DNA of 64,000 nucleotides from Dillenia suffruticosa (Eukaryota > Streptophyta > Magnoliopsida > Dilleniales > Dilleniaceae), in NCBI GenBank assembly GCA_033439265.1, contig JAVTVX010000026.1:8991001-9055000 (forward strand), read 5' to 3'. Position 1 is the stretch's first letter, and each line of letters starts with the position of its first letter. The notes under the pieces are model-generated. The model was not told the origin of the DNA. It was given only the letters and a program-made list of their open reading frames with translations, and did no database searches. The translations under genes and the position numbers were made by a program. Below, one piece after another: positions 18,424-62,765 of the stretch.

Positions 18424-18464
18424 TTACCTAACACTATCGCAGATTCGGCATCCCTTCGGCCATC

Positions 18465-21743: not shown

Positions 21744-23890
21744 TTGTGTTCCAATTTAAAAGATGTGATTTTGGCGTTGTTAGTGTTCGGGAAATTGTTG
21801 TACTCAAAATTTGTGGTCATAACATTGTCTATTCAGAAGGTTACTAAAAGAAAGCAAGGGATGAAAAAAAAATTATGCTTTGTCGATATTGATTGGTTGA
21901 TTGCTTCCAATACAAATATACTATCTGCCTCGGGTATTTGGCATTCGTCGACGAAGTTATGCAAGTGTCACGTGGTAGAAATGTGAGTTTCTGCTGTGTA
22001 GGAGCACTGTATGGTTGTGCTATGTAGGAGAACTACGTGGTTCTGCTACATAGCAAGACTGTATGGTTTTGCTAGAAAGCAGAATGGGAGGGTTCTGCTA
22101 AGCAGTAGAACTTTCGAAGCAAAACCACGTGGTTCTGCTGGCCACGAGGTTCTACTGCCTAGCAGAACCATATCATTCTGCTACGTAACAAAACTAGATG
22201 GTTTTGCTAGGTACCAGACCCTCTGAAGCAAAACAATGTGGTTTTGGTACGTAGCAGAACTCTGTGGTGAGAATAAAAAATATTTAGTTTTAATGGCGAT
22301 ACAGGAATATTAATGTTGAAAGAATTAGATCTTAATAATCAAGATAAATCATAAAAGAATGAAATTGAAGATGTATAAAAAATGCCAAATTGGTTAAAAA
22401 AAATTTACAACTTTGATATTGCGATCGAATTTGCTACGAGAATATTAATGTTGAAGGAATAAGAAATTTAATAAGCGAGAAAATTCATGGAGGAAGGAAA
22501 TTACGGCTATAAAAAAATGTTTGGAGAGTTATTTAAAAATCCCAAAAAAAAGAAAGAACTTTGATGTTGTATTCGAATTTAAAGAAGAATATTAACATTA
22601 TTAATATTGATTGGTTAATTGCTTCTACTGCAAGTTCGCTATCTTCCTCGACTATTTAGCCTCTGTTGATGAAGGTATGTGAGTACGGCATGGCAGAAGT
22701 GTGAGGTTGTGCTATATAACAAAACCTCATGGTTCTACCACATCGCAGAACTTATTGTTCTGTTAAATTGCAGAATAAAATGGTTCTGCTATGTAGCAAA
22801 GTCTCTGAAGTAAACGGTGTGGTTCTGCTACGTAGGATACTGTTAAAAATGCTGCAGGAATGACAATCTTGTAAAAAGTAGTTATTTAATGAGCAAAAGA
22901 ATTCATGAAGGAGTGAAAGTAAAGATATAAAAAGAATTAGGTACATTTGAAAATTATTTAAAAAGAGCAAAAAACTTACAACTTCCATATTGTGTTCAAA
23001 TTTAAAGAATGTAATTCTAGCATTATTAGTGTTGGGGAAATTGTTTTTCTAAAATTTCGTGGCCAAAACAATAATTTAGAAACTATGGGTTGGATTAAAA
23101 AAATGTTGTCCGTTCGAAAAAATATTAAAAAAAGCAAAAACAAACAACTTACGACGTGGTTCTGCTACCTGGCAGAACCTTGTGGTAGAACTACATTATT
23201 CTGCTGCGCAGCAGAACTACGTGATTCTGCTGCGTAGCAGAACTAGAAGGTTCTGCCAGGTAGCAGACCCTCCGAAGCAAAACAATGTGGTTCTGGTGCA
23301 TAGCAAAACTCTATGGTGGGAGTAAAAAATATATAGTTTTGATGACGTTATAAGAGTATTAATGTTGAACAACGTTATTAATATTTTTGTTTTATTTTTA
23401 TTATTTAAAATTATATAAGAATTAAAATTAACGAATCAGTCTTATAAATCAAAATATAGATATTTTTTCGATAATATCATTTTTTTTCTAATAAATTGAT
23501 TTTTAGTTTTTAATCATTCTAGTTAACATTTTTGCTCATCTTGATTCTTGGTTAGTCAACGAACGTTGCATCTTGATCCAAAAACGAGCCAACTTTCATC
23601 GATAAAGGGCCGGCCTTCACTGACAAGGGCTCCATTGGAAAAAAAAGGGAAAATTTTTTGTCGTAATGAACACATGGTTCTGTACATAACAGAATTATCT
23701 GCTTCTGCTCTACAGAAGGACATGGTTCTGCACATGGCATAACTACATGGTTCTACATACTAGAATTACATAATGTAGGACTACATAATTATGCTATGCA
23801 AGAGAACCTTGTTCTGCGCATAGCAGAACGATGTAGTTCTATCGACGTGGTTCTGCACATATCAGAGCTTCATGGTTATGCATGCCACCT
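21744..23890. repeat. Palindromic array, left block (upstream of Helitron A)
   Basis: Four clusters (about 21980-22265, 22690-22850, 23155-23325, 23665-23885) of a degenerate 26-bp unit, in which CTGCTACGTAGCAG and GCAGAACCACGTGGTTCTGC alternate as two interlocked palindromes. Between clusters are AT-rich spacers that are themselves repeated. A TATTGATTGGTT leader occurs at 21887 and 22605, followed by a TTTAGCCT(C/T)TGT-like block and a GTGAG(G/T)TT run into the palindromes. Another shared spacer reads AATATTAATGTTGAA and CAACTTTGATATTG. Short open frames here are repeat by-products. Confidence 0.85.
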
Positions 23891-25045
23891 TATTATTCAA
23901 ATGTCCAATTTTTTGAAATATTATATATAATTTGTTTTGATATTATTTATATAAAATATGAAATTGTAACATAAAATGCGAAAATATTAAATGATGAATC
24001 AAGACAACATTATGCCAACAAGTGTTTTCCAGTGATTTCTGTATCTTCTCCTGTGAAATACTTCTTTATGCGCACAGAGTGTCATGCCCCTTGTCAAGAG
24101 AGAGAACCATATATTTTATCCGATGAATCAGTTTCTTTGGCAAGATGCATTTTATGCATGGTCATACAGTCTCCAGTGTGGAAAAATACATGGCCAGGTC
24201 AGTATTGATTGCTTTTATGTTTCAAAGACACGTAAATATTTTACTTTCCTGGTAAAACCTGGCAAATTTTCTAAAAATTCAGGTTCTCTCTCATTCTATA
24301 AAAAACTATCACGCTTGAGGTTGATTTTGACGCTGTAAATATTGAAACAATTACTGATCAATCTTCCATGGTTGGTTCTCTAATGGATATAAATATGTCC
24401 ACCACTTATTTTTTTATTTCCTTTGTCAATTTAAGAACTTACCTGCAAATGGCATTGGATTTATATCAAACAACTTGGATTTATAATTTAAAATTAATAT
24501 TTATTTATTTTCAATTTTATAGAAATATTAATATTATGCAGATATTGTTTTATTTTGATTCAGGATGTTTAATGTTAAATAATCATTTAAATATTTAAAT
24601 ATTATGTACCCTAGAAACACAATTTATAAAAATTATAATTTTAGATATCTTTGATGCGATCGTAAAATTTTTTTATCAAATTATTACAAGAATGCCGTCA
24701 TATTACAAAAATACCATTATATTATATTATGATAACTAATAACAATAAAATAAAAGATAAAAAAAGAATTGTTCTACAGCTGCAGAGCAACGAAAAGAAG
24801 AAAGAGATTATATCTTATATCTTATCTTCATCATTGTCATTGTTGTCATCATCATTGCGATGTGCGGAGGCCATGCTTGTACTATATGTTCCGTGTAGCA
24901 TTTGTTTTTTATTTCTTTTCTTTTTTCCTCTTTTCTTCTATCTTTTTATATATTTTTATAAATTTTTATATATTTTTATTATTATTATTATTATATATTT
25001 CATTCCCGACATAGGCATGTGGTGTGTTAATTAAATCCCAAACTA
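23891..25045. other. AT-rich stretch between left array and Helitron A leader
   Basis: Includes a segment (about 23890-24010) that matches 61010-61150 in the same orientation, ending in AAATATTAAATGATGAATC. A short frame at 24084-24338 has no recognisable motif. T-rich low-complexity sequence covers 24890-25000. I find no gene. Confidence 0.55.
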
Positions 25046-25219
25046 TGTTTTTATTATTAGGATACTTGCGGTCCGAAAGCGAATGGTCATTGTGTTGTGC
25101 AGATGGGTTGAGGAGGGTGGTTGGGCAGTATGGTCTCTCATGATGTCAGTCATGATTGCTAGCGTTTCCTCTTGGTCTCGTTTAGCGTCTTGTTCAGTGT
25201 CTTGTTCTTTCACAGGAGT

Positions 25220-25920
25220 AATGTGGATGTTACTGACAATGATATGGTGTCTGTGTTGTAGCCTCTTGTCTTGAACACGAAAGTGTTGCAACCTCTCGTA
25301 TTCTGAACATGCAATGGAGACCATGTATTCGAGACACGGATTCCCTCTTCTCTATTAAATAAATAAAAAATAAATAAATTATGTTCAAGGTGTATGGTGT
25401 CTGTGTTGTTACCTCTTGTCCTGAACATGCATGTGTTGTAACATTTTATCCTGAACACGTAATCCAACGTTGGAGACATGGATCACCGTTCTCTATTAAA
25501 TAAATAATCAGAAAATGAAATAAGCATTTATTTTTATATTTCTTTTTCTGAGAATTTAGTTTTATACGCAAATTGAGGTAATAAGAGTTGTTTGGTTGTT
25601 ATGATTGCGATACATGAAGTACACGCTTTCACTTTCCTGAGAGCTTGATATGGTTAGTATATGTTTATGTAGATCGGATTGTTGTTTTGAGGGTTTGCAG
25701 ACTTCTTCTTCTGTTTTGTCCAGGTTCTCTTTTTTTCTTCTTGCTCATCTCTAGCACAACATTTTTTTATTACGTTTATAATGATTTGGTTAATTAATTT
25801 GCTTTGCCCAATTTTTTCCCCTTTAATCCTTTCTTTTCTTGATCTATTTGTAGTCTTTGTGCTTTTTACTAGCCGTTCTCTTTTCTGTTGTGTGGTTGTG
25901 TCTCTACAATCCAAATTCTT
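25220..25920 (+). other. Helitron A 5' leader block
   Basis: Non-coding, homologous to 43800-44430 of copy B. It contains two imperfect copies of a phrase built around GGTGTCTGTGTTGT, CTTGTCYTGAACA and GAGACATGGAT (about 25240-25340 and 25390-25475), followed by a T/C-rich tract. By analogy it is the 5' untranslated or promoter region before the Rep gene, which is missing here. Confidence 0.55.
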
Positions 25921-26554
25921 GTATGGTTGTATGCTTGGAACTTACAGTAACTAGTCTTCCTGTAACCATCTAACGTTTGCTTTCTGACTATGCTATTATT
26001 ACAGGACTCCAAACAAAATATTTAATAGAATTCTTTATACAGGCATCTCAACTATTGTGCCATTTCGTTATTAAACTTATTCATTTTGAAAAACTCAGTC
26101 GACGTGGTTGTGAAGAAGTCAACATTTTTTAGTAAATAGGCTAAATCAAATTCATTGTTAAACAAAAGAAGATCTCTTTGGAGATGTGCATGCTTACATG
26201 GCATTAGATAGGACCGTTAATGAACGCCATCAAGGAGATTACAAGGATTTTTTAAACAACCAAAATCCAAGAGGTCTATCACTTTATAGATTGTCACTTA
26301 ATAAATAGAATTGTCCTATTATGTTGCTTAGGAATATAAACCCAACAGAGGTTTTGTGTAATGGGACAAGGCTGATATGCAAGCAATTAGGAAAGTATTT
26401 TATTTGTGCAGGGATAGTTTTTGAACACTACATGGGAAAAAAGGTATTGATTCCTTGAATTCCTTTACAGACTTCTAATAATGAAAAAAACGGGATTCCC
26501 TTCATAAGGACACAATTCCCTGTTCGGTTATGCTTTGCTATGACATACAACAAA

Positions 26555-26566
26555 CACTATAAAAAA
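26555..26566 (+). repeat. CACTA-2 left terminal inverted repeat
   Basis: CACTATAAAAAA, preceded by AAA. It matches the right end at 11 of 12 positions. Confidence 0.9.
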
Positions 26567-27604
26567 ACACAGTTTTAGTCACGGATTTTTGCGACGAAAA
26601 AAATTCGTTACTATTTTGCGATGAATTTAGCAACAAAAACTTTTTCGTCACTAATTTACCACAAAATTTGCAACGAAAAAGAAGTCGTGGCTAAATTAGC
26701 AACGGACACATCATTCGTGACTAAATTCGTCGCTAATTAGTGATGAAAAAGTTTTCGTGACTAAATTCATCGCTATTTGGTGACAAAAGTTTTTTCGTTG
26801 CAAATTTCGTCGCTAATTAGCAGCGGATAATATTTTGTGGCTAAATTTTGCCACGAATACAGTTATCCGTAGCTAAATTTAGCGACAAAAAAAATTCGTG
26901 ACAACTTTTGTTGCTAAATTTAGCAACGAAAAATTTCGTGGGAAATTCTATTGCTAATTAGTTACAAAAATTTTTCGTCATTAAATTCACCATTAATTAG
27001 TCACGAAAAAATATTTGTCTCTAAATTTAGCAACGAACTTTAAAAATCGTGGCTAAATTCATCACTAATTAGCCACAAAAAAAAATATTTATAGCTAAAT
27101 TCGTCACTAATTAGCCACAAAAAGTATTCGTGACTAAATTCGTTGCTAAATTATTATCTATATTTCAAAATTTAAGTCTAATTTTGTAACTAAATGTTTT
27201 TTTATACTCTGTTAGAAAATATTTTTAACTGTGTCCCCGTTTTAATCAATTCTGAATAACGAAATTGAATTAAATATATAATAAATATTATAATTTTCAA
27301 CAAACTGAGAATTTATATCAATAAATAATTCAATAAATCTGTAACAGACAATTTTAAATAAGTCGCAGTTGTGGAGTTCACCATTTATGTTTTTCATTTT
27401 CTATATCCGTTCGTTCTCTTATATAATTTAATCGCATTTAAAAATTCAGTTGTTAATCTTCATTTGTCATTGTTATCAACAAGGAAGATAATAGATGATA
27501 TATCCATATTCGACGATCCATCTCATTTGCCAAGTAGATCAAACATTAGTTTTTGGAGAATGGAGATAATGATACGGATGGTTAGGTTAGGCGGCTATCA
27601 ATTT

Positions 27605-29110
27605 TTAAACTATGTTATGGATTCAAAAAAAAATAAAAATGAAAAAGAATAATAAAATAATAAAATAAAGAAAAAAGAAGAAAACAAAATATAAAATACA
27701 AATTTATATATAAAAAAGATTAAATTAGCAACGGATCAAGAAATCCGTCGCGAATTTAGCGACCGATTTCGCGATAAATTTATATCCGTCGCTAATTTAG
27801 CGACAAATTTTCATATCCATCGCTAACTTAGCGACGAATAATGAATTTATTTTTTTATTTTTCTTTTTATTTTATTAATATGTTATATTTAAATTAAAAA
27901 TTAATTTAGCGACGGATTTGTTTTCCGTCACTAAATTTAGCGAAGAAAAGCTCAATCCGTCGCTAAATTTTTTATATATAATTAAATAAAATATAATATT
28001 AATATAATATTTAAATTAAAAAATTAATTTAGCAATGACGAATTTTATCCGTCAGTAATTTAGAAACGGATTTTCAAGTCCGTCGCTGAATCAGCGAGGG
28101 ATTCCAAGTCCGTTGCTGCATCAGCGACGGATTCCAACTCTGTCGTTGAATCACCAAATCTTTTTTAATTAGAATTTTATTTTATTTTATTTTATTAATT
28201 TATATTAACAAATCATATTATTATTTTATAATATTTTAATTTAACATTTTATTTTATTATATTATTTTTCATTTTTTAAAAGAATAATATTATTTAAATC
28301 TTAAAAAAACTGTATATTTTATTTTATTTAAATTATATTATTTAAAACCATATGAACAAATCAATTTATTATGTTATAATAATTTAAAATAGCAATTTAT
28401 TTTATTTTTTTATATTTTATTTTTCTAAGAATAATATTAATATATTTTTTAATTAATTTATTTTTTTATTTTTTTGTTTTATTTAAAATTTTTTATTATT
28501 GTATAGGTACCTTTTATTTTATTTGTATTATTTTATTCAATAATACAAATCAAATTATTATTGTTTTATAATATTTTTTAATTAATATTAATCCGGTGGG
28601 CATGCCTGGGAGCGAGCCTGTGCAGGCGCCCGCTTTTCATTGTTTTAAAGCTAAAAGAATGCTATCGAAGGGATTAGAACTTTGGACCTCAGATTTGAAC
28701 AAAAGACATGTCAACCATTACAGCACTACTAAGCCTTGTGTGATAATATTTTTTTTTTATTTCTTTCCTCCTGCTCATTTTTTTTTATTCTCACTTTTTT
28801 TTTCCTTCCTCTTACTCTCATCTCTATTTTTGGATTTTTTTTTTCCTTTCTATTCTCATTATTGAAATTTATTATATATAATAATTATATTGAAATTTCT
28901 TATATATTCAAACGAATAAAAATATTTTGTAATTAAATATATAGATTTTTTAAATTATTAATATATTATAATTTATTGATAATTATAATTTTATATTATT
29001 AAGATACCGTAATCCATTTTTAAACTATGGATTAAAATAATAAAATAAAAATGAAAAAGAATAATAAAATAATAAAATAAAGGAAAAAAGAAGAAAACAA
29101 AATATAATAT
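27605..29110. repeat. Internal duplication in CACTA-2
   Basis: A low-complexity block starting TTTTTAAACTATG and running through GAAAAAGAATAATAAAATAA and GAAAAAAGAAGAAAACAAAA occurs at about 27605-27695 and again at about 29010-29110, pointing to internal duplication in the element's AT-rich core. Confidence 0.65.
28625..28745 (-). repeat. tRNA-like (SINE-type) relic inside CACTA-2
   Basis: On the minus strand a TAGTAGTGCTGTAATGGTTG segment resembles a pol III A box. About 45 bases on, AGTTCTAATCCC resembles a B box. The spacing and surrounding phrases (GGCTTAGTAG, TTGACATGTCTTTTGTTCAA) look like a decayed tRNA gene or the head of a plant SINE. It is not a working tRNA: I cannot fold a full cloverleaf with a clean anticodon arm. 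No flanking duplication identified. Confidence 0.4.
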
Positions 29111-29304
29111 TAATATATTTTTTAATTAATTTATTATTTTATTTTAAATTAGTATTTTATTACTTTTTAGTTTATTAAAAATTATCATATTTATTATTTT
29201 TAATTAATATTATTTTAGGTTGGTCGTTCAAGTAAAAAAAGTTATTATATTTATTATTTTAAATTGTTATTATATATTATTTTATTATTATTTTATAAAT
29301 CCTC

Positions 29305-29405
29305 TTGCAAGGTAGTACTGGCTCGGGTGGGTGGGGCCCGTCCAGGCACTGGCTTGCAGGCTAGTACTGGCTCGAGTGGGCAGGGGCCCATCCAGGCATG
29401 GCATT
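29305..29405. repeat. Short GC-rich tandem duplication in CACTA-2
   Basis: Two copies of a unit of about 50 bp containing TAGTACTGGCTCG(G/A)GTGGG and CCCRTCCAGGCA. A related phrase occurs at about 28595-28640. Confidence 0.7.
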
Positions 29406-29944
29406 TTGGATTTCAACCAATTTTGAATCAGCGATGGATTCCAAATCCGTCGCTAATTCAGCGATGGATTCAAATCCGTCGCTCATTCAGCGACGGATTT
29501 TTTTATTCGTCGTTAAATTAGGGAAGGATAATTTTTCGTCTTAATTTAGTGACAGAATTTTTTTTTGTTGCTAAATTAGCAACGGATAATTTTTCCGTCG
29601 CTAAATTAGCAATGGATAATTTTTTCGTCGTTAAATTAGTTACGAATAATTTTTGTCACTAATTTAGCGATGGATAATTTTTTGTTCCTAAATTAGCGAC
29701 GGATTTTAGCGATGAAAATTATCTGTCGCTAAATTTATCAACGAATTTTAGATTTCGTCGCTAAATTTTCTGACAAATTTTAGCGACGAAAAATTATTTG
29801 TCGTTAAATTTAGCAATGAATTTCAAATTTTCGTCGCTAAATTTTTGCGACGCATTATTAGTGACGAAAAATTTTTCGTCGCTAATGTTTTTAGTGACGA
29901 ATTTTTTTTAAATTTTCGTCACTAAATTTGTAGCTAAAAGCCTA

Positions 29945-29956
29945 TTTTTTGTAGTG
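29945..29956 (-). repeat. CACTA-2 right terminal inverted repeat
   Basis: Reads CACTACAAAAAA on the minus strand; followed by AAA. Confidence 0.9.
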
Positions 29957-30274
29957 AAATCTCAAGGACAAACATTGAAATACATTGGAATTTATATACG
30001 TGAACCTGTTTTCTGTCATGGCTGACTCTATGTTGCATTGTCTAGAGCTAGATCCACCCATTCAATTAAGGTGTTAATGGTTCCTGCAACATTTGATGAT
30101 GTAAGATTGAACAGTAAAACAAGAAATGTTGTTTTTATTGAAATATTTAGTCTTCCTAAATTGTAGTGTTTTCTTCATCAGGTATATATATTCATGATTT
30201 CCATCTTATTTCACACTTTTTCCAGGATCTTTTATTCTGACTTTTTTTATTGCCATTCCTTTATTTTTTTTAGG

Positions 30275-32872
30275 ATGGAAAATTATTCTCTTATAAAAGA
30301 TATCACTTCTGATACACAAAACTGGACCTGTAAAATCACGGTCCAAGAAAAGCAACATGTTACAACATCAATTAATACCCCAACGAAGAAGCAGAAATAC
30401 ATCTTCACGGATTCAGAAGTATGGATTTTTTTTCTTGGACTCAATTTGAAATCAAAAGCTTATCATATATGTTTCTAACTTTTTATTTTCATAACTATAG
30501 ACCTCCATCGTATTATATTTTTCCAACCGAGAGCTTATTACGTATTTTTACAGCTTTTAATTTTTTCCATGCAACGTTTAGAATATTATTATTATTATAA
30601 CATAATATTTCCTCGAAAAAAATATCAAGATGTATAACCTCATGGTTATCTCTCTTTTTACATAGGGAACTCAAGTAGAAGGGATAATGTTTAACGCAAA
30701 CATCCCTAGAATGTGCCCCATGTTGCAGATCTACAGAACTTATCTGATATCAAATACTGCCGTGAGACCAATTCCTCCAAAGTTTCAGAACACAGACATC
30801 AAGACTCAATGGGTAATATCCACAAGAACACTTGTAGAAGAATTAGAGAACGAAGATGATGCGATAGCTGTAAGGTTTAATTATGCAAAATTTACAGATT
30901 TGGTGTAGTATATGGATCACAAGGACAAATCTGTAGGTATGCTTCCTTTTGGATCGACTTTCGTTTTTCCTATGCATTTTTTTTGCGATTATATATATTT
31001 TGTTTTTTACTTGGATGTTTATTTTTGGATTCTTTTCTGGGGTTATTTTTAATCCAGATATTTTGGGCATTGTCATTTCTGGATTGGAACCAACAAACAT
31101 CGCTAGGCAAGAACAATTCTATCATTCAAAAATTTATGATTGTGAATGAAAAGTAAGTGCCCTTAGGCTTTCCCATCTCTAACAAAATAATAATGCATTC
31201 CTAACTAATACCTCTTTTCGAAAAAACAGTTTTCAGAGCCTTTAGTTATCTCTTTGGGATGACTTCGTCCACAATGAAGGACAATAAATGTTGGCAAACC
31301 TCCGTGCGTATCCTGTTATTGTTGGGAGAAGAATCAAAGTAAATCCTTACAATAGTATTAACAAGAATCCATCATTCCTTTACTTTTTCATTTATTTTTT
31401 TCTATGCGCATGGATTTTATCTATTTGATTTCTTTGTACAAGGTGTCGCACTATCTACTTGGTTTGACTCAGTTATCCTTGTTGATTCGCCAATCCAAGA
31501 AGCATGACAACTGAAGAACTAGTAATTGTAAATATAAAGTATATAATGATTGTGAATTTTTAAAAAACTATTTTGGGTTTTAACATATATAGCTATTATA
31601 TATTATATATTGTTCAATTATTTCTTTCATAGGGCTCTGAGAAACGATAAATTGCTTCAAGATATAATTCACCATAAAAAGTACGATTACTACAATCCTG
31701 ATATCTCTTTCACAGCAACTGGGAAAAATAACTAGGATATGTAATTTTACAGCAGCACAAAAGGTAAGCCATTTGCTCCAAAAAAAAAAAAAGATTTTCA
31801 ATATAATACTTCTTTGTAACCGTCATATTTTACTTACGTCTTATATGAAGCAATTTCAGACAGCATGGGTAAAGGTGCAGCTCTCGTTTGAACATATTTT
31901 TCAAAAATATTGGTACATGGCATGTAGCAATTGTTTCCACTCCACCTCTGCTTCACTTGATGTTGATTTCTTGTACAAATCATGCAAGGAAAGAGGAACT
32001 GCCAAACCAAGGTAACCTTCTATAGGATTTGATCAGATTTGTGTTATGGTTTTTGTTGTCTCGAATTGTTTGTTTGGACTTTTCCAACCATTTTATGATG
32101 ATTCTGCTTCTCTGTCTAATCTTCTTCCTGTATGTTTATACTTTGTTCTTTATAGATGTCGCTTTAATTTTGATTTGCAAGATAACACTGGCAAAATAAC
32201 TGCCTCTGTATTTGGAGAGTTAGTCAAGAAATTACTGAGTTTAACAGCTGTTCAAGCAATGGAACATTTTAACCAGGTTTTATTTATGTAGTTTGCACAT
32301 GATTTGTTTAAAATATTAATGTACTTAAACTATTTCTTCCTCGTCTAAACACAAAATGTATATCATAGGAGTTCCGTTTCCAATTTACTATACTAATTTT
32401 TTTTCCATATTTTTACAAGAACATTGAACTCCCGCTCAATGATGTACACGAAGCCTTGAAAGAAAAAATGTTCGTTGCGCACATAAGACCTATTTGCTCT
32501 GAAACAATGGATGTAAAACAACGGTTCACGGTCATATATTAATGTGATGCTTCTGAATATAACACTGATGGTGCTTTCCTTTCTCAACAATCTACCATTG
32601 GCCCTTCTTCTTCATCTTCAGTTACTTTAAGTGGATGTGAACAAGGTGTGCCCTCTGTATTTTTTGCAGCATAGTGATTCTTCCTTCTTATTTTTACAAT
32701 ATAATAACTTTGCCGTTCTGCTTTGCTCATTTCAGAAATGATGGTTTCTTTATCGAGAGCCAAGGTTTCGCTGCTTCATAAGTTTGATGATGTGGAAGAG
32801 AATACCCTAGAGACTGGGGAACTTCTTGAACCCATACATGTGAATCTTCCTAAGAAAAAAAAACTAAGCTAA
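30275..32872 (+). pseudogene. Helitron A RPA1-like single-stranded DNA-binding protein gene, decayed
   Basis: About ten short exons on the plus strand separated by AT-rich introns with GT/AG borders. They start MENYSLIKDI at 30275 and end LPKKKKLS at 32872. Exon 2 (30666-30943) encodes an OB-fold segment with IYRTYLISNTAVRPIPPKF. Later exons carry ILGIVISGLEPTNI, YDYYNPDISF and the Rep_fac-A C-terminal zinc-ribbon region WYMACSNCFHS followed by CRFNFDLQDNTGKI (31860-32275). This order follows the DNA-binding domains of replication protein A large subunit. Plant Helitrons are known to carry such a gene, thought to coat single-stranded intermediates. It lies about 110 bases after the helicase stop. 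At least two in-frame stops indicate a pseudogene. Confidence 0.82.
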
Positions 32873-33239
32873 ACTACTGTCTTATTTCAAAAAAAAAAAT
32901 GGCATGATAAAATGTTTTTGTTGTTGTGGTGGCTGCAGAACCACCAAACAAACTTTGTTTTGTCTTTTTGTTTTCTCCATGGAAACATGTCGCTCGTCAT
33001 GTACTTATTAAAAGCAATCCTTTTTGACTTTCTCAAGGCTGTGTCCACAAAAGTTTTGCTTATTGGTGAATACTTATACTTGTTGTTTACATAAATATGT
33101 TTTCTCATAATTAATATTGTGACGCCACTGAATTTCATCATCCGTTTCTAAAAATAGGATACTTTTACAAGATAAATAAATAAAAGTTTTTCAACGTCAA
33201 TTAAATCGTAAAAAACTCCACTATTGCGTTGACCAGTTA

Positions 33240-34329
33240 CTACGAAACATAATATTTAGTTTTGATAACACTACAGGAATATTGATGTTAGGAGAATTGG
33301 ATATTTAATAAGCAAGAAAATTCATAAAAGAAAGAAATTAAACATATAAAAAAATATTTGGAAATTTATTAAAAAAACAACAAAAAAAATACAAGTTTGA
33401 TATTGTGTTCGGATTTCAAGAATACGATTTTAACATTATTAATATTGATTGGTTGATTGCTTATGATGCAAATTCACTGTCTTCCTAGATAATTTAGCCT
33501 CTGTCGATGAAGGCATATGACTAGCACGTGGCGGAAGTATGAGGTTCTGCTATATAACAGAACTAATGGTTCTGTCATATCACAGAACTTATCATTCTGC
33601 CACATGGCAGAACAAGACGATTCTGTTACGTAGAAGAACTTCGTGGTCCTGCTTTATAGTAGAAGTAAATCAAAAATATTTAGTGTTAAGAATGTTACAA
33701 GAATAATAATATTGTGAGAATTAGATATTTGAAAATTTTCATGAAAGAATCAAAGTAATGATATAAAAAAATTAAGTAAATCTAGAAAATTATTAAAAAG
33801 GAGGAAAAAACTTACAATTTTAATATTGTATACGACTTTAAAAAATATAGTTTTACCATAATTAGTATTGGGGAAATTGTTGTGATGAAATTTTGTGGCT
33901 AAAAAGAACAAGTTAAAAACTATGGGTTAGATTATAAAGATATTATCAATTTGAAAAATTATGAAAAGACATCGAAGAATTTTTTTTAAAAAAATTAGCA
34001 TTGTGAATATTGATTGGTTGCTTGCTTCTAATACAAGTTTACTATCACCGTTGGGTATTTGACGTTCATCTGCAAATTCGTGCAAGTGCCGCATTGCGCA
34101 AATGTGAGTTTCTGCTATCTAAGAGGACAGCATGGTTATGCTATGTAGGAAAACTGTACGGTTCTACTGGCTAGCAGAACTGTACCATTCTACTGGATAG
34201 CAAAATGAGAGAATTCTGCTATGTAGCAGAACCTTCGAAGCGGAACCACATGGTTCTACTACGTTGTAGAACCGCATGGTTCTACTATTTAGCATAATTA
34301 CGTGGCAGAACTATGAGGTTCTGCGATGT
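33240..34329. repeat. Palindromic array, middle block, first part
   Basis: Clusters at about 33520-33670 and 34105-34329, with the same 26-bp units and spacers as the left block. The TATTGATTGGTTG leader is at 33443 and 34018; spacer AATATTGATGTTAGGAGAATT follows 33275. The second cluster is cut by the outer LTR at 34330 and resumes at 40724. Confidence 0.85.
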
Positions 34330-39200: not shown

Positions 39201-39589
39201 AGTAAGAGAGAGAGAGAGAGAGAGGGATTAGGGTTTCCAACCCTAATTCCCAATTCATATTTGGGGACGTAGCATTTTGCCTCAAAATGCTGCATCTCCA
39301 TTTTTCATTTTTCATTTTTTAAAATAATTATATATATATTTATGCATATATATTTTCACACTCATATTTCATTAGAAATGCGAATTTCATAAAAATGAGG
39401 TTTACTTCGATTTGCCGATTCGGCAAATTAAAATATACCAAAAATTTAATTTAAATACCCCAAAATCAAAAATCAAATTTAAATAAATAAAATCTCTCTC
39501 TATATAATGAACTGAGGAATATCTCATTTTTATATATATATATTTTGAAAATAGTACTCTTCTACGGATACCGCAGTGTCGGTGTTACA
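36214..39589 (+). mobile_element. Inner solo LTR (3.4 kb), nested in the outer LTR
   Basis: It begins TGTCACACCCCAAACTGGGG at 36214 and ends GTGTCGGTGTTACA at 39589, with a perfect ATAGA target duplication on both sides (36209-36213 and 39590-39594). It is related to the 4.67-kb LTR at 12319-16986, sharing the end sequence and the GCGGAAGA...CATACCCAAG and GTGAGGGGTGAGTAT blocks. It contains a GC-rich zone (38515-39130) of short GCGGGCT/GCGAGCC repeats and a GA microsatellite (39205-39224). No protein-coding domain of a retroelement is present; open frames in the GC-rich zone are low-complexity. Inserted after the outer LTR. Treated as a fossil. Confidence 0.92.
38515..38905. repeat. GC-rich short-repeat zone in the inner LTR
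   Basis: Irregular repeats of GCGGGCTAGCGGGCC-like, CGAGCCAGTGAGC-like and CTCGTGGACTGAGG units in an otherwise AT-rich window. Confidence 0.75.
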
Positions 39590-43655: not shown

Positions 43656-43799
43656 GGAAATTATTTTACAGATATTTTTTCGTTAAAATAAAAAAATACA
43701 CATGGAGGCCAAGATCGACAAAACTGTGTGTTCTTCTGTGTTATCGCCCACGCATAGTGCTATGCTGTCTTGTTGTTTCAGAGGATTGATGTAGATATA

Positions 43800-49932: not shown

Positions 49933-50040
49933 ATTTGACCATTCAGGTATATATAAATTTTTTATTTGCTCCTATTTGGTAGTTTTTCCTCAATATTATA
50001 TTCTAACTTTTTTTGTTGTTGTTCCTTCATTTTTTTCAAC

Positions 50041-52680: not shown

Positions 52681-53278
52681 GGGGGCAGGGAGAAGGCGTC
52701 ATAAAGTGCTTTTGTTCGCCTGACGCCTGCAAAATCACAAAACTAACTTATTTATATATTTTTTTTCCTCCATGAAACTATGCCACTCGTTATGTATTCC
52801 ATCAAATCAATCCTTTTTGACTTTTTGCTGAAAACTCTGTCTGCAAAATTATTAAGTGTTATGAGTTACTACAAAACAAAAAAAAGGGAGAAAGGTCACG
52901 AGTTACTACAGAACAAAATATATTGTCCGCTTTACAGCTGCTTGTTGTTCATCCTCATCCTTTCTTCTAGCTACCCTTGATAATTTATTGCAGCCTTTCT
53001 TCTTCAAGCGTGAAAAAAATATATGGCCACTCAAACAACTAAGGGTGTGTTATACTCGTAGTGAAAAAAAATAATGGCTATGCTTTCAAATCCACAAAAT
53101 GCTGATTTACAATCATGCTGCTTTTTCCTGCACTGCAGGAAAGACCAGGTATCTGCTTCTTGTGTGGTACGTTTTATATGATTCTTATAGCTTTTATCAT
53201 GTTATATGAACCAGAAGAAAACATTTGTTGAACCTCTTTATTACCTAAAAAATGCAACTTTTGCCTGTACAATTTCAG

Positions 53279-54321
53279 ATGCTACTAGAACGGCATGGTC
53301 AAAATAGAATTACATTCAGGCATGGAATGTGCGATTGGTCCTTTCCCCTCATAAACAACCTCTATAAAGATGCACCAGCGGAATACCTTGATAGTAATCT
53401 TATTAAAGAACACCACACCTTACTTGTTAGACACGTTGGAAATCTTGTCAGTGATGTCGTTCATTTCTGCGAATTCCAAAAACAAGTTTACCTAAGCTGA
53501 CAACTCCATTACCCAGTATTCTACAACATCACGGTTTGAGATATTTAAAATTTTCCTTTATAAATCATCATACTATATATATATGTAATTATATATATAT
53601 CTCTCCATATTTATAATTTAGTTTAATATTGTTTGCAGGACAAGAAAATAGTTCAATATTGAAAAAAGCCATTTGTACATTAATAAAAGCTGATTGTATT
53701 CAAGATGTTTGCAGTTTTGTGTGGTTTTATCAAGCATTTTCTGTGGCCGTTCCATATAAATTAGTAATGCATATCTCCTTTTTATAATTCAACACCTACC
53801 TTTCTTGATATTGACATTTTCCTTCTTCTCCTGTTAAATGATCAGGAAATACCTCGGTTCATCAACTATTTTGTTAGTGGTGAAAAAACTCCCACCATGA
53901 TTTTGAAGATCGGGTCGCAATCTCTTCAAGTTGGAATCCAAGGAAGACATATTAAGAAGAACTGGAACACTTTTGTTTTGAAACATAATCTCCATCATAA
54001 TGATATCCTTGTTTTCATTCCAGAATCAGAAACAATATTTTGTATTATCGTTTTTGATCCCTACGGAGTAGAGAAAATTTTCCCTTGGTATCATACATAC
54101 TCTGTGTATTCACGGGTTAAGAGAGACACTAAATTTTATATTTCGTACCATTCCTTTATTTTTGTTTTTCACGAGACACCAATATCTATTCCAGTTCCCA
54201 TGCCTTTGCAAAATGCAAAACTATTTTGTTGTTCTCCATACAGAAGATCCGCTCATACTTTTATTAAAAATTATAAACATTACAGATGGATGATTATGCT
54301 TAAAAATATCAAAAATATTTG
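53279..54321 (+). pseudogene. B3 DNA-binding-domain gene remnant (REM-like), downstream of Helitron B
   Basis: The exon 53845-54321 follows a clean AG acceptor and reads EIPRFINYFVSGEKTPTMIL, then KNWNTFVLKHNLHHNDILVF, then an IVFDPYGVEK end. This is the pattern of a plant B3 domain (start IPxxF, a W..FV..H.L..D.LVF helix-strand core, a V/IFDPxG strand). An earlier exon (53279-53500) reads ITFRHGMCDWSFPLIN and NLVSDVVHFCEF, which could be a diverged first B3 domain, but this is less sure. The part between the exons does not stay open. B3 proteins are plant transcription factors. It has no counterpart after copy A. It may be a captured host gene or the neighbour into which the Helitron landed. 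Confidence 0.65.
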
Positions 54322-54729
54322 AAATAAATGATGTATGATAACTTTGTTATGATATTATAATAATGAAACGATTCTAATTTTGTTACAATGAAAAATACCA
54401 CATCATATTTTTTTATGAAACCTAACCCTCTGTTACAACTTAGAAAAAAATGGAAAAATATTATTATACTTTTTTAATGCAAACAGATCCAATGTAAAAT
54501 TTTACAAATCGTTTACATGAAAACAATGCAAAAAAATATATATATATTTAGGATACTTAATATAAAACAAGCAGAGGAAAGCAAAAACGCGTATCATGAA
54601 ACATATTAAAAAAACTGAATAAATTAATTTGCTTTCTCTCACTCTATCTCCCACCATTTATTGTTCGCATTTATTATATCTCATCGATTCCATATTCCTA
54701 GACTTTGGCTAAATAATTATTAAATTATT
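54322..54729. other. AT-rich stretch after the B3 remnant
   Basis: No gene. It contains a segment (54415-54530) duplicated at 55250-55355 (CCTAACCCTC, then TACAACT, then AAATTTTA.AAATCGTTTAC), and a CCCACCATTTATTGTTCGCA phrase (about 54650) that recurs near 59475 and 60275. Confidence 0.6.
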
Positions 54730-55860
54730 TAGTGGTTCTGCACCATAATCTCATTCAGCAAAACGTAGAATCACCTCGTAATTCTATGACCCGCAAAACC
54801 ACGTGGATCTGCCCTCACAACGGCTAAAAAAATTTTAAAAAATCAAATATCTATAGGTATAACATTATACGTTTTTTTTTTTTTACCCTGTAAACCTTAT
54901 ATGTTTCATGTTAAATACAAATATCAAGATTCAATTTAAAAAACATAGATTTATTTTACGAAAACTAACGAAAACAACTTAAATTTAAATCCAAAGGCAT
55001 TTAATTAAACAGTTTACATCTAAATATATTTAAGCATGACATACCTTCTTTTCAATTTTCAAAATGTTATCAAAATATTTTAATAGTTATATTATGTACC
55101 ACTTTGTTGTTTTAGATAATACCTAACAATATCTCCCAACTCTAAAAGAAAATTAAAAAAAATATATCGTATTTCTTTTCCACAAGAAAATCACAACTCT
55201 AATAAATCATATTTCAATTGTTGAATTGTTTAACGAATTATATTTTTTAATAAATCCTAACCCTCCCTTACAACTGTAAAAAGAAAAAATGAAAACAGAA
55301 TGTTATGTTTGCTTTACACAACCAAGTCAAATATAAAATTTTAAAAATCGTTTACTTTTTTTTTTTGTACCTGGACCTTCCTGTATCTGGAGCTTCGCCC
55401 TCTTGTTAGCGTAGGTGAGAAGGGCACTTTCGTCCCTTAACCAGGTCGGAAGTTCAACTCTCACTAGGTATGAAAAAAATAATATTGGGAGACCTTCCCC
55501 TCAAATGAGGCGCGACAGTCAAGTCGATTCCGGTTTAAAAATCGTTTATCTCAAAACAACTCAGGGAAGAAAAAAAATCACGCTTTCAAGATTATTTTAT
55601 ACAGACAAAAACAATATTAAATTTTTTAAATCATTTACATTTATTTTCCATATGAACCCTAAACAAAGCAACCAGTGAAAAAAAAATATACATGTATATC
55701 ACGGCTCGTCAACCAGGGCACATCCTCGGTTCAGTTTACTAGAACAGAGCCACATTGCCATCCTGCTAGACACAGAACCACCATGTGATTCTGCGACCCG
55801 CGGAACCATGATATTGTTCTACTGATTGCAGAATTACGTGGTTCTGAGTGTAGAATGACA
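54730..55860. repeat. Palindromic array, right block, first part
   Basis: Clusters at about 54730-54830 and 55735-55850, here with more diverged units (GTGGTTCTGCACC, GCAAAACCACGTGGATCTGC, GGTTCTGAGTG). They are separated by AT-rich spacer that duplicates the sequence before the first cluster and holds the SINE-like insertion. Confidence 0.7.
55340..55548. mobile_element. SINE-like insertion with 15-bp target duplication
   Basis: A segment of about 179 bp is flanked by perfect copies of TTTAAAAATCGTTTA (55340-55354 and 55534-55548). A homologous stretch at 54490-54530 (TTTTACAAATCGTTTACATG) lacks the segment, so it is an insertion. A run of T at its left end is a poly-A tail on the minus strand. 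On the plus strand, TAGCGTAGGTGAG and AAGTTCAACTCTC match pol III A and B box patterns at about tRNA spacing. The length, tail and duplication fit a plant SINE. The tail and the box orientation disagree, so the family and direction are not settled. Confidence 0.6.
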
Positions 55861-56500
55861 AAAAAATATTATAGAAAAAAAAAAGCTTTCTAGCAATAAC
55901 ATTATTTGACCACTTTTTAGCCTTTGGTACATAGCCTACATTTTCTAACACTTTGATTTAAAAATTCTCTGATTGAATACCATCCAATAAACTACTTAAT
56001 CCATTCTATTAAACATTTAATAGAAGCAGGAATTGGGACACACTAAATTACTTCCCAGACACAAACCTAGAGAACCCTCAGCAAACCAAAATTACAAAAA
56101 CTCAACCATAACAAAGGGAAACCAGGATCACACAAACAAAACAACACCACAAAATAAAATCAAACAAACGTATAACTGACACAGGACTACCTTGCACTAA
56201 CACCAAAAGGATAAATAAATAGGAGATAACAAAAAATGAATAACTCTTTGCTTCTCTCTTCCAATATTCATGTACTTCGGCTATGAACCACAACTAGCCA
56301 CAACCAACTATACAAAAATAAAAGAAAGAAAGAACCAAAAATAGCTTTCTCCTGTTGTTTTCGTATGTTCAGCATACAAAAACATCCAGTTAGCTAATCA
56401 TGCAATTGCTTTATACCACAAAGGAAAAAAAAGCAAAAAAAAAGAAAAAGAGATTCATAAAGGGAAGGGAAAAAAAAAACGGAAAGCTCAAAATTGTTTG
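55861..56500. other. AT-rich stretch before the fossil gene
   Basis: No coding sequence recognised. It lies downstream of the minus-strand gene at 56611-58623, so part of it may be that gene's 3' flank. No terminator or poly-A signal can be singled out. Confidence 0.45.
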
Positions 56501-56610
56501 CTAAAAGTTTACATCCTCGTCAAGAAATATGAAAGAGTTCAAGCCAAATTTATAAACAATCTCAACAGCATTCACGACATTTGTCCAGAAGGGAATCCAA
56601 CAACTTTTTT

Positions 56611-58623
56611 CTACAAGCAAATCAAATCCTCTCGAAGAGAAGCAACTCGAGAGCCCATATCATTGATTTCTTCACTAACAAAACAACCAAAGCCTTCTGG
56701 CTGCAATCCAGATGAATTATCAATAACCTTACCAACCAAAAAGGATTCTTCCAATCCAGGTCTACAAATAAAATCTTGCACCTTTGACTGCTTGTCCACA
56801 AGTTCTCGGTTCTTGCTTTCATATTCTTGCTGGATTTCCAAGAACCTTTTCTCTGAAACTTTCAATGCCTCTACTCTCTCCTCTGCTAATTTTATAGTAG
56901 CCCGCCGCTCCACTTCGGTCTTTCTCAGTATAGCATTCAACTTCTCGCATTCTGATAAGGCTACGTCATTGATTTGATACGATGATTGAAGATCCGCCTT
57001 CATTGTTTCCAACATTCCTTCCTTCTTTTTTATCATTGCGATCAACTCTTCAATCTTTTCAGCATCTACAGCATTCAAGCCAGACTGCTCCTCCAACTTG
57101 CCAGGCATCTCATTTATTATTTTGGTCTTTCACAGTCTTTGAAATCGAACAAATGTGGTAGCCTAATTTTTTTTAAAAAAATAAACACAGATAAAAAAAA
57201 TCTTAATTCACACATACTATATTCTTATATCAAAAATATCATATATTATATTTTAACAAAATGTTAGCATCTTTGAAAAAACTACCTAAAGCAAAAAACT
57301 CATGACAGCATCATCTCCTTCTTCCAAGGATAATTGGTTTAATAGACTTTCCTGATGAGTAAAACTGATTCCATCCGTGAACTTTCTAACCTCTTCCAAA
57401 TCCAAATGGCAGAACTCTGGATGATCACAGCTTGCAACAGCTCCCTTCCCTTTCACATCTCTGGACCCATCAATTGGTGTAACGGTACTACTGGAGCCAC
57501 TTTGAATGATTAACATTTCGGTTGTTAACCGCGCTTCTTTTTCTCCTACCAATACCATGGTCCTTGCATCCAATTCTTTTGCCAGATCTGCGTCGTTCTG
57601 GCCATCATCACCTTCATCACTCACAACAATCAAATCCTTCAGGTTTTCACCAACGATCCCAACAGTAGCGCTCTGTTCCCTTTCTTTCCTCACCTCCTCA
57701 CTCTCATCCCCTTCCTCACTCCCAGATGTCCAAACAAGCTTTCTTTTCTTTCTAAAATAAGTCTCTTGCAATGTATGCTCCTCAGGCCGACATTTTTCCT
57801 CCTCCGGTTTTTTTTGTATTGCATTTCTTATTTCTTTTATGGTCGTGACTCTCTGCATATCATCAACTTCTGCAAATCTTAAAGAGTCTACAACTTCTAT
57901 TCCTTTTTTCTGTACCAAAATTGACCTTTCGATCTGCATATTCTCATTTAACAAAAGACCAGCAAGCATTAACATCTCATCCTGGATGAGTGTGTCCACC
58001 CAAATAGAAGTACCCCTTCCAACATAGTATTTACCAACCGATTTCATAAAATCAGCATGCACGGAAGGAGGAGTCAATGGGTTGGAGGCCGATATGAGAG
58101 GTTCACCATGTACCGGTATAAAGGGTATCAAACTTTCCTTTAGAAACTCCACAAAGAAAAACTTTCTCTTCCACGACCTATCAACTCCCAATAATAGAAC
58201 TTCCAATTAGACTCTTTACACTATTGGACGCAATACCAATCCTCATTGGCATCTCCTATTGCACACTTTCTTAGACAAAAAACAGATAGTAGAATTTCAA
58301 AATCAAATCTCAGCCGACAGAAGCTTACTAAACTGATAACAGCTACTATCAGCCTCCATGCACTAGGGATAAACAAAGTTAGAAACATATTCCAACCTTT
58401 CAGGATAACTGACAAAGGACCTAAATAGGACACCCGTACACCGTATCTTACGTACTCCTTTATACATGGGGACGAATCTCTCCACCACTTGATTCGCTCT
58501 TTCATCCCCTCTAGGTAACCTTAATCGAAAATCACCCCCAAAACCCATTTCTTTCGCTATGATTTCCAATTCTTTGCGCGTCATTATGCTCTTAATATCA
58601 CTGATGCTTCCTACTTTTTCCAT
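56611..58623 (-). pseudogene. Plant gypsy-type transposon-protein (PF04195-like) gene with coiled-coil tail, fossil
   Basis: Three minus-strand blocks lie in order. The first (58623-58221) has RKELEIIAKEMGF, RLPRGDERAN and SAWRLIVAVISLVSF. The second (58206-57286) starts with a SWKRKFFFVEF motif and continues with a Lys/Glu-rich charged region. The third (57108-56611) is rich in heptad-like Glu, Lys and Leu (EKIEELIAMIKKKEGMLETM) and is a likely coiled coil. The NAWR...WKxxFFFV pattern and charged coiled-coil end are those of the plant family called putative gypsy-type transposon, PF04195. The frame is not continuous, so it is broken or contains introns. It sits opposite to Helitron B inside the right array. 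Treated as a fossil. Confidence 0.55.
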
Positions 58624-58639
58624 TCACCCCAGCAATTAA

Positions 58640-59245
58640 CCTGTACTATCCCTGAAACTAAACCTAAACCTTTTTACTTTCCTATAAAATTTCTAATAGC
58701 AAAACAAACCACATGATCAAAAATACCAACACGCATCATGAAAATGCTAATACATTAATTCTATAAAAAACAACTCAAATGACAGTACTTGCCTCAGACC
58801 CTACTATCTTCCTCCTTAATAAAAAATTTTGACTATATAGCGAAAAAAACCAAACAAAAAAAAAACAAAAAAACAATCAATGAAACTTAATGAACTCAAC
58901 AATGGTCCCCGTTACATACTTTCTACATTTATGTTGTTTTCTTCGAATATACTTTCTAGGAGAAAAAACAATCACTGTATGCAACAAACAAAAAAAGGTA
59001 ACAAAACAGATACCAATACATTAACTCAACAGATTTAGTAAATTCCGGCATCCATTTATCCGTTTTTGCCCTCCCTCATTGTTTTTCCCAAATGTTTAAC
59101 TCTGTAAAGAAGGCAACAAAACAATAACACTCCATGTGCCGCATAAACCCAATCATACTTACTTGGTACTTTTTTTCAGGACCGTTCTCTTAAAAAAATT
59201 GTTTCTCTACACTATACTCTACTCTACACAAACAAGGAGTGAAAC
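58640..59245. other. A-rich stretch without a gene
   Basis: A-rich sequence between the fossil gene and the duplicated block. I see no coding region or clear repeat. Confidence 0.5.
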
Positions 59246-59247
59246 AA

Positions 59248-60387
59248 ACAAACGAAATCAGCAAAACAAGAGATACCCTATGAACCAAAAAACCAATCCA
59301 GCAAATAAAGGAATACGCTCTGAAAGGAATACAATAAAGGAATACCAAAAGGATACTAGCAAAACAAAGCAAGGAAAAAGAAAAGACAACAAGCTGAAGA
59401 AAACAAAAGGGCATATCCCAAAAGATATCAAAAGCTTCAAAAAACTCACTTCCTTTGCGTGACTCTCTTTCTTACCATTTATTGTGAGCATTTGTTATGA
59501 CTGACCTACTCTGTTCTCCTAAGCCCTCATTATTAGATTTACATCCATACCATCCTATCAGCAACACTTCTATCAATTTTTTTAAATTTTTTATTTTAAA
59601 TACAATCTTTAGCTTTTAGATTTTATACCTTCTAAAATTAAGATTATCAAATATTTTCCATGCAAATTATTCATGTTTATATAATTCAAATTTTACACAA
59701 ATATTAATATTATTCGATTATTTTTTCAACTTCATTAAAGATACTTGATATTAAATAATTATTTAAAATTTAAATAATATGTAGCGTGCAAAATATAACA
59801 AAAAAACACTATAATTTCAAAAATACGACAACTCATTCCACAAACATTTGGTACTTCCCTTCAGAAGACCCACTCGTCGTTCTCGCAACTGCTGAACCAC
59901 ACCACGATCCTGCCAACCGCAGAACCACTTGGAGGTTCCACCAACCGCAGAACCACAATAGTTCTACCAATAACAGAGACAATGGTTGTACATACAGCTG
60001 TCCACCTGCCGGTTCTGCAAATCACAGAATCACAACCAACAAGTCAACAAACAAACGACACCAACGAAGCAAGGAATACCCTCTGAACAAACAAACCAAT
60101 CCAGCAAATAAAGATATACGCTGTGAAAGGGATACAATAAAAGAATACCAAAAGGATAGGAATAAAATGAAGCAGAGAAAAAGAAAAAACGACAGGTCAA
60201 GGAAACCAAAAAGGCGTATCCCGGAAGATATCAATAAAATTCAAAAAGCTTATTTCTTTTACGTAACTCTCTTTCCTACCATTTATTGTCTGCATTTATT
60301 ACGAGAAAGCCTATTCCATTGTCCTAAGCCCTCCTTATTAGATTTACAGCCATTCCATCATATCTGTAACACTTCTTTCAATTTCTT
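59248..60387. repeat. Tandem duplication of about 800 bp in the right flank
   Basis: The block 59248-59585 (with ACCAATCCAGCAAATAAAG, ATACCAAAAGGATA, CCATTTATTGTGAGC and CCTAAGCCCTCATTATTAG) is repeated at 60050-60387, offset about 802-805 bases. The palindromic clusters at 59870 and 60650 keep a similar offset. The open frames across both copies (59136-59462 and 59786-60391) are Lys/Asn/Thr-rich and not convincing proteins. Confidence 0.8.
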
Positions 60388-61155
60388 TTAGTTTTAAATT
60401 TTACGTGCCATCTTTAAATTATGGATTTTCTGTGTTTTTTTATTCTAAATTATTAAATATTATAGTTTAAAATTATTAATATTTCTATAATTCAATTTTC
60501 ACAAAAACATTAATATTATCTAATTTTTTTTTCGTTTTTATTGGGATACTTAATGTTAAATAATTATTTAAATATTTAAATAATATGTACGAAAAAAAAT
60601 AACAAATAAAAACTATATTTAAATAATATGTGCTTCCCTCCGCAGCACCGCATAGTGACTCTACCAACAACTGAACCGCTTAGTGATTCTGCAAACCGCA
60701 GAACCACCTGCCCCTTCTACAAACCGCAGAACTACGTGACAGTTTTGTGAACTGCAGGACCATGACAGTTCCACCAATCACAGAAAGAGGATGGTTCTGC
60801 ATACAAAGCACAAAACTGCCAAGATAATTTAATATTCAATTTTATTTTTTAAAATTTTTTAAATTTTAATTTAATATTATAAATATTTTTTAATATTACA
60901 AATAATTATTTTACAAGTACTCAACTATTTGAATATATATAACAATCCACATAGCAAAACAATGTACATACCAGAACCATATGGTTCTGCATACCAGAAC
61001 CAAGATGTTCTCCGTACCACTTTATTATTTGAATATTCAATTTTTTAGAATATTAAAATTTATTTATTTGGATATTTGCTATTTATTTAAACAAAATATC
61101 AAAATTCTAATATAAAATTTGAAAATATTAAATGATGAATCGAAACAACATTATG
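59865..61155. repeat. Palindromic array, right block, second part
   Basis: Clusters at about 59870-60030, 60650-60815 and 60950-61015, built of units such as AACCGCAGAACCAC and GTTCTGCAAATCACAGAA. Unlike the left array, many units have AACCGCAGAAC in place of TACGTAGCAGAAC. The spacer 61010-61150 matches 23880-24010 in the same orientation, linking both flanks of the Helitron pair. Confidence 0.75.
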
Positions 61156-61900
61156 GATATTTTTATTTAAATTGACTATTAAACTTTTTTACCATTGAAA
61201 ATTTATAAGAATTAAAATTAACAAATTAAATATATAATTATAAATATATAACACGCACCACCACACACAATACAAGCCGCATTTTCTCACCCCTCTTTCT
61301 ATATAGAAAAAATGGCCTAAAAAATAAAAAATATATATATACACAAGAACTCAAAACAATTATCTCCATTAAACATAACATTATATATAACATTATACAA
61401 ATATTTTTTTTCTAGATATAATTTTTTTAATATCTAATGTATTTAATTTTAAATAAACATCTACATATTAAATTAAATATTTAAATATATATATTCTTAT
61501 AAAATTTTAAATTGCATATTCATATTTATAAGTTTTGGTATTTGTTTATTATTTGATCTTTTTATATTTTATTTTACAATTAATATTTTGTTTCAAACTC
61601 CAATTTTAAAAGCTTTTAATTAGAGAAAAATTAAAATTACTAGAGTAAAGGTTTTGGATAGACAGTAATTCTTAAAAACATTAAAAATCTAATTTGAATA
61701 CTCCATGGTTAATTCTAGACAATTCCTACATTACTCGAAAAAAAATAAAAAGAGCTTTAACTTATAGATTTAGATTACTTATACATAAATCGATCAGTGC
61801 AAACTCGACAATGCCAACCAAAAGAATATCTAATTTATTGTGTAAATTTTTTTATAACTAAATTATTTTTAGACTTTTTCTATATTTTTTATTGTAGTTT
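61156..61900. other. AT-rich stretch between right clusters
   Basis: Very A/T-rich. It contains TATAAGAATTAAAATTAAC (about 61200), also found near 23415. No gene. Confidence 0.5.
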
Positions 61901-62765
61901 TCTATAGCCAAACCATATCCTTCCACATAGCAAAACCGTGTCATTCTGCTAACCAAACCATATTGTTCGGCATAGCAGAACCATATAGTTCTTCATAACA
62001 GAACCATGTAGTTCTGCTACCAAAACCATTTTACATGTTTTGATTTTCACACAAAAATTAATATTGTCCGGATAATTTTTCCCTTTTGATTTAGAATAGT
62101 TACTGTTGAATGATTATTTAAATATTTAAATACTTCTTAAAGTATACATACAATCAGTAATAAATATAGTTTAATGGATGATTTAGCGTTTAAATATTTT
62201 GTAGTTCTACACTGCACTGCACAACACAAAAAATTAACAAATAATATTTAATTCTGTTTTAACAAATAACTTTTAATATATAACAAACACACCACGCACA
62301 ATACATTTTTAATATAAAAATTTAAATTCAAATGTATTTAAATAAACAACACGGATCAAAATATATTTAAATATAACATACATTTTTTCTTATTCTAATG
62401 CATTTTTTTATTATCATATAATATATTTTATATTAAATGAAAATCTAACTATTTAAATTAATTTTTTTTGTATTTTTCTTCTTATACGATTCTAGATTAC
62501 ATAAAAATGTGTATAACTCTACTTGAATTACATTAAATGTTTAATAATAATTTAGTTTTAGTTTATTATTTAATATTATCATATTCTATTTCAATTTAAT
62601 ATTCTAATCCGATCTCAAATATGTAAATATACATATCCGTATATATACCATGTAGTTCTACCAAAGGCAGGACCACCTTCTGGTTCTCCAAAACACAGAA
62701 CCACCTTATGGGTTTGCAAAACACAGAACTTCATTCTCGTCCTGCACAGCACAGAACTATTTTAT
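61901..62765. repeat. Palindromic array, right block, last part
   Basis: Diverged clusters at about 61905-62035 (CATAGCAGAACCATATAGTT, GTAGTTCTGCTACC) and 62645-62765 (GGTTCTCCAAAACACAGAAC). The AT-rich spacer includes a phrase GATTATTTAAATATTTAAAT (62110) also present near 24580 and 60565. This is the last array seen in the window. Confidence 0.7.

Follow-up and report, generated by a model that had tools for sequence, protein, structure and literature searches.

Tandem Helitrons of plants can have more than one 5' end but only one 3' end, according to excerpts of the review PMC12628747, and the inner copies of tandem Helitrons often lack the 3' end (excerpts of PMC12628747 and PMC7492417). 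Tandem centromeric Helitrons of plants have been attributed to rolling-circle amplification (Xiong, Dooner and Du 2016, as cited in excerpts of PMC12628747 and PMC5876387). Here, we describe a locus of Dillenia suffruticosa at which two Helitrons, termed copies A and B, are each preceded by a block of palindromic 26-bp units arranged in higher-order repeats. The locus lies within a 64-kb stretch of contig JAVTVX010000026.1 (the window), which has 33% G+C and reads as plant DNA rich in transposons. It resembles the tandem centromeric elements in being arranged head-to-tail, in having an inner copy without a 3' part, and in combining several 5' parts with one 3' part. It differs in that the two copies are about 25% diverged and each carries the upstream palindromic repeats, which the excerpts on the published elements do not mention. 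The Helentron-derived HINE/DINE-1 elements (excerpts of PMC4067079 and PMC7492417) are likewise rolling-circle elements with expandable tandem repeats. However, these are non-autonomous animal elements with central arrays (monomers of about 140-180 bp in oyster) and paired subterminal inverted repeats, whereas at the present locus the repeats precede RepHel, and the element is of the plant type.

The two Helitron copies, and the element nested in the first, are as follows:

25198-33057, forward strand: Helitron copy A, degenerate; aligns with the 5' body of copy B and with 49355-52853
26555-29956, forward strand: CACTA-like element nested in copy A, with target site duplication (TSD) AAA and its own inverted-repeat arrays of about 30-40 bp
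44811-52853, forward strand: Helitron copy B, with RepHel in broken frames and an RPA-like part, from Pfam, the A/B alignment and the ATG of the first reading frame

Copy B matched Helitron_like_N (PF14214; 46843-47412, E 7e-17 and 1.3e-9) and the PIF1 helicase (PF05970; 48281-48951, E 2.3e-37 and 5.9e-10), in both cases across broken frames. The RPA C-terminal domain (PF08646) scored under its curated cut-off in both copies (E 0.012 in A; E 0.045 in B, at 51910-52098), and the frame at 49768-49929 had no Pfam match. Copy A lacks the greater part of the Rep and helicase stretch, and its positions 25940-26171 are an inverted piece of 47710-47936, a region between the Rep and helicase domains of B. 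Further downstream, A 26169-33057 aligned with B 49355-52853 after removal of the nested CACTA-like element, which exactly fills the gap in the alignment; judged by position and known motifs, the shared part presumably comprises the C-terminal part of the helicase and an RPA-like part. Among the Pfam matches of the stretches scanned there was no Helentron endonuclease domain; no search was aimed at subterminal inverted repeats. A helicase piece compared to viral contigs gave 20 pattern matches, none of which was confirmed. Judged by its sequence, the pair is one of decayed, head-to-tail plant-type Helitrons with Rep, PIF1 helicase and a predicted RPA-like part. An earlier reading of this DNA made from its letters alone (the sequence-only reading) had proposed two tandem Helitrons, which agrees with the two remnants in one orientation and with the arrays associated with both.

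The blocks upstream of the two copies, and an insertion that splits the second one, are as follows:

21743-23369, forward strand: upstream block of copy A, in which AT-rich spacers and clusters of the 26-bp palindromic unit make up about 2.5 higher-order repeats
33251-34329, forward strand: first part of the upstream block of copy B, with spacers and 26-bp units
34330-40718, forward strand: insertion resembling a long terminal repeat (LTR) retrotransposon, starting with TGTCACGCC and with the 5-bp TSD GATGT
40724-43657, forward strand: upstream block of copy B, second part, including the open reading frame (ORF) 42145-42474 between two clusters

Each higher-order repeat of the upstream blocks measures about 0.5-0.7 kb and consists of an AT-rich spacer and a cluster of 26-bp palindromic units. 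A weight matrix for the unit, obtained by training on the window, settled on GTTCTGCTACGTAGCAGAACCACGTG and gave 91 matches of at least 10 bits, whereas 20 first-order Markov simulations averaged 1.95. The zones of the 26-bp unit (21.9-23.4, 33.2-34.33 and 40.7-43.7 kb) hold 66 of these matches and the remaining array zones another seven each at 23.6-24.0 and 54.4-62.8 kb, so that 80 of the 91 fall into array zones; seven of the 11 outside lie in a GC-rich stretch at 38.6-39.2 kb. The half-sites GTTCTGC/GCAGAAC (at most one mismatch) occurred 260 times, with 101 expected from 10 simulations. Grouped as at least three sites with steps of at most 60 bp, they formed 20 clusters, all within 21744-62765 and 19 of them in array zones; the other one, with three half-sites, is located in the body of copy A (30725-30791). 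The "about seventeen" clusters counted earlier are a fair figure, as the insertion causes one block to be counted twice. Within the 26-bp zones, half-sites alternate in orientation at a pitch of 13 bp (steps of exactly 13: 27 forward-reverse and 26 reverse-forward), in line with two interlocked palindromes per unit. D1, a 137-nt piece of the spacer, precedes unit clusters at seven places, including 21871 and 22589 in the block of A. The concentration of the unit around the Helitrons, its interlocked palindromes, the larger spacer repeats and the occurrence of spacers in the same orientation in both flanks, all reported in the sequence-only reading, were thus recovered. One correction concerns the type of unit: the region right of B and 23.68-23.88 kb mainly contain 23- and 28-bp relatives. 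Rfam gave no match at gathering scores. The exact degenerate unit was absent from the viral contigs searched, and in prokaryote genomes it occurred at one single site in a bacterial metagenome-assembled genome, which by estimate is about the chance level.

The insertion in the block of copy B is 6.4 kb long and bordered by GATGT on both sides (34325-34329 and 40719-40723). Joining its flanks yields an in-register unit, GTTCTGCGATGTAGCAGAACCACGTG, that scores 34.1 bits, while the best present-day unit in the window reaches 32.5 bits. The TSD and the restored unit therefore indicate that the zone between A and B was formerly one block, upstream of B. The arrays had been said to separate the Helitrons; arrays do lie between A and B, but they represent one split block and are better described as being upstream of each Helitron. 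We take the start of the insertion to resemble that of an LTR retrotransposon; a search of 34330-40718 for an LTR pair found none. One and the same LTR-like element is represented by its start at 34330-36032 and, in opposite orientation, at 3-1549; the two copies are about 77% alike. In the block of copy B, the ORF 42145-42474, flanked by array clusters, encodes 110 aa with no Pfam match.

With the insertion removed, A 21824-22959 aligned with B 33942-41552 in a single alignment (E 1e-169). The upstream blocks are collinear over 1093 ungapped columns, with 176 gap columns and with nine bases of the insertion included, at a Kimura two-parameter distance (K2P) of 0.278 (0.296 in array columns, 0.268 in spacer columns); body pieces gave 0.291, 0.345 and 0.317. 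By similarity, the D1 copies of one block are interspersed with those of the other: 21871 is nearest to 33992 (75%) and 22589 to 33427 (83%). As the alignments indicate, the block predates the split of A and B; in each copy it precedes the body, with order and orientation preserved. Because block and body have diverged to about the same degree, they were copied together, and the noncoding block is a real and unusual feature that is tied in age to the decayed Helitron pair. Joint copying alone does not establish transposition, as tandem duplication of the locus would leave the same picture.

Downstream of copy B, and between the block and the body of copy A, lie further features, some of which are built of relatives of the unit (R-type):

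23676-24755, forward strand: R-type stretch between A's block and body, 23-bp unit relatives and AT-rich spacers
53249-54319, forward strand: B3-like coding remnant downstream of copy B; PF02362 on 53768-54319, E 0.0064, weak and under its cut-off
54402-62765, forward strand: R-type blocks 3' of B; larger repeats, of which one pair is spaced by 803 bp, contain 23- and 28-bp unit relatives

The homology of A and B ends at about 33057 and 52853, respectively, and copy A meets the block of B within 200 bases. The region 52820-54420, including the B3-like remnant, had no forward-strand match in 20.2-34.3 kb; 53249-53497 did not match PF02362. On these alignments, inner copy A lacks the 3' part of B and abuts B's block, the arrangement that marks tandem Helitrons. 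In the right-hand zone, the pitch is 12, 13, 16 or 10 and whole units are 23 or 28 apart; this zone is therefore a relative of the 26-bp array rather than the same array. R-type sequence is collinear between 23819-24014 and 60950-61155 and between 24500-24755 and 62030-62283. Gene-like ORFs on the reverse strand at 56614-58623, with a coiled-coil look, interrupt the 3' array zone and may be captured; none matched a Pfam family at its cut-off.

We regard it as about evenly poised whether the locus represents decayed tandem Helitrons that arose as a rolling-circle pair, with a 5' noncoding palindromic block that was copied with the element and with the unit as a putative binding site. The block would belong to the 5' non-coding region of the element, would have expanded by slippage or unequal exchange, acting on the unit at first and on the larger repeat later, and would have been copied along with the element. 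The pair would result from rolling-circle copying that skipped the 3' terminator of the inner copy. More tentatively, the unit may be a repeated protein-binding site, with its 7-bp half-sites recognized by a regulator or by the element's own replication protein.

Several observations weigh against a rolling-circle origin of the pair together with its block. The evidence comes from one locus in one 64-kb window with two Helitron copies, and a plain tandem duplication of one locus gives much the same collinearity. The 5' (upstream) body piece, with a K2P of 0.514, is more diverged than the block. The blocks start at different repeat positions (21743 in A, 33251 in B), and the R-type stretch parting A's block from A's body requires an extra event. 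A weak 29-base match of 33232-33260 to 52898-52926 (79%, E 0.048) may extend the A/B homology to 33260/52926. Array columns of A and B are 76.4% identical and spacers 77.6%; the arrays are thus no better conserved, which gives no support for present-day constraint. Furthermore, neither a 5'-TC nor a hairpin-CTRR terminus could be placed at the locus, a 5'-TC end not being placeable from one locus. A scan for Helitron 3' ends gave three candidates on the forward and eight on the reverse strand, with 2.25 expected per strand, and five of the eight lie inside inverted-repeat arrays. The only long-stem forward candidate, 56356-56397, is one stem of at least 9 where 0.9 are expected, and as a 3' end it would put the later arrays outside the element. 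The array borders had no convincing hairpin-CTRR end either, and the earlier suggestion that the arrays are an expanded terminus found no support.

The missing terminus would also suit an independent satellite or minisatellite that received one Helitron insertion, the locus of array and Helitron later being doubled in tandem through unequal exchange. Block and body would be expected to diverge equally in this case too, and R-type clusters flank the gene-like stretch on both sides. We consider such an origin possible, though doubtful: within the one window, all half-site clusters adjoin these Helitrons apart from the one inside the body of A, and the differing borders of the two blocks argue against a clean duplication.

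Arrays of short palindromic or inverted motifs are familiar from the ends of CACTA (En/Spm) transposons, and the subterminal motifs of Spm bind the TNPA protein. The window holds a second element of this type:

5823-20217: CACTA-like element with ends CACTACAAAAAAA/TTTTTTTGTAGTG, TSD GTT and a Transpos_assoc domain

Both CACTA-like elements in the window bear inverted-repeat arrays of about 30-40 bp near their ends, and arrays that are subterminal repeats of a CACTA-like transposon with terminal inverted repeats (TIRs), into which Helitrons inserted, would take a familiar form. At the present locus, however, no TIR and TSD were found around the arrays, long AT-rich spacers separate the clusters, and the spacers of the left and right flanks share one orientation instead of being inverted, which makes this explanation unlikely. 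A search for 12-bp TIRs with TSDs enclosing the arrays returned 1, 2 and 5 pairs (eight in total, counted without a shuffle control), all weak, with 1-2 mismatches each and TSDs of at most 3 bp. CACTA-type TIRs with a 3-bp TSD were not found around the arrays, although degradation may have hidden such termini. Two CACTA-type end pairs had matching TSDs, and both belong to the CACTA-like elements of the window, with other end-like sites compared by eye.

A further possibility is that the palindromes form hairpins on the single strands of Helitron intermediates and serve as terminators, in Rep cleavage or as an RPA platform. In support, six of seven array pieces folded better than their shuffles (z -3.3 to -11.4; a single spacer piece, z 0.6), and palindrome 2 showed a slight excess of double changes, with 36 compared to 29.8 expected in 57 units (reached in 176 of 2000 shuffles) and 16 compared to 10.5 in the 30 units followed by another at +26 (43 of 2000 shuffles). 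However, the better conserved palindrome 1 showed no covariation in its paired columns (13 double changes, 13.8 expected, 57 units), and one array piece folded no better than its shuffles (z -1.3). As palindromes fold whatever their role, folding lends a hairpin role little, and we consider it improbable. Alternating half-sites at a 13-bp pitch, as putative protein-binding sites, are the better guess. In 57 units picked by score, which flatters conserved columns, transversions per site were 0.068/0.073 in the arms, 0.091 in linker 1 and 0.246 in linker 2. In 14 units picked by neighbours only, being flanked on both sides, the values were 0.031/0.061, 0.107 and 0.179. This set replaced an unfiltered in-register neighbour control of 72 positions (arms 0.339/0.268, linkers 0.331/0.359), which was uninformative as many positions lay beyond cluster ends. 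Linker 2, the CACGTG of the second palindrome, is the most decayed part of the unit, consistent with its earlier reported loss from many units. Array columns had 0.171 transitions and 0.065 transversions, compared to 0.113 and 0.111 in the spacers, and the observed/expected ratio of CpG was 0.34-0.74 in five array pieces, compared to 0.75 in the window. By this spectrum, the array is decaying now, mainly through transitions; together with the low CpG, their excess would fit methylated C being lost from CG and CAG/CTG contexts.

Iterons of rolling-circle replicons are repeated Rep-binding half-sites near the origin. By comparison, the present array extends over kilobases, and its half-sites are putative and known from sequence. 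A plant Helitron family with an iteron-like cis region, where its own Rep or a host regulator would bind kilobases of alternating half-sites upstream of RepHel and so control copying, and with related arrays towards the 3' side, is a long shot. In the literature searched, "Helitron" and "iteron" occurred together in one paper, on yam geminiviral sequences, and the string CTACGTAGCAGAAC did not occur. In the excerpts of this literature, which included few subscription papers, we came across no account of a Helitron preceded by a palindrome block of this kind. To our knowledge, the cis sequences of plant Helitrons are poorly known apart from the termini. If the block travels with the family, it would supply a defined candidate region for regulation or replication and would illustrate how palindromic minisatellites can be seeded by rolling-circle elements.

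Some further features were observed in the window. The CACTA-like element at 5823-20217 has its own inverted-repeat arrays of about 30 bp close to both ends; at 18354 on the reverse strand, it contains a GC-rich 11-bp stem followed by CTAG|T that resembles a Helitron 3' end. Immediately left of the array lie a tandem duplication of about 250 bp (20628-21122, 81%) and a fold-back of about 320 bp (21369-21689). At 55360-55540, a SINE-like (short interspersed nuclear element) insertion with the apparent target duplication TTTAAAAATCGTTTA was spotted by eye.

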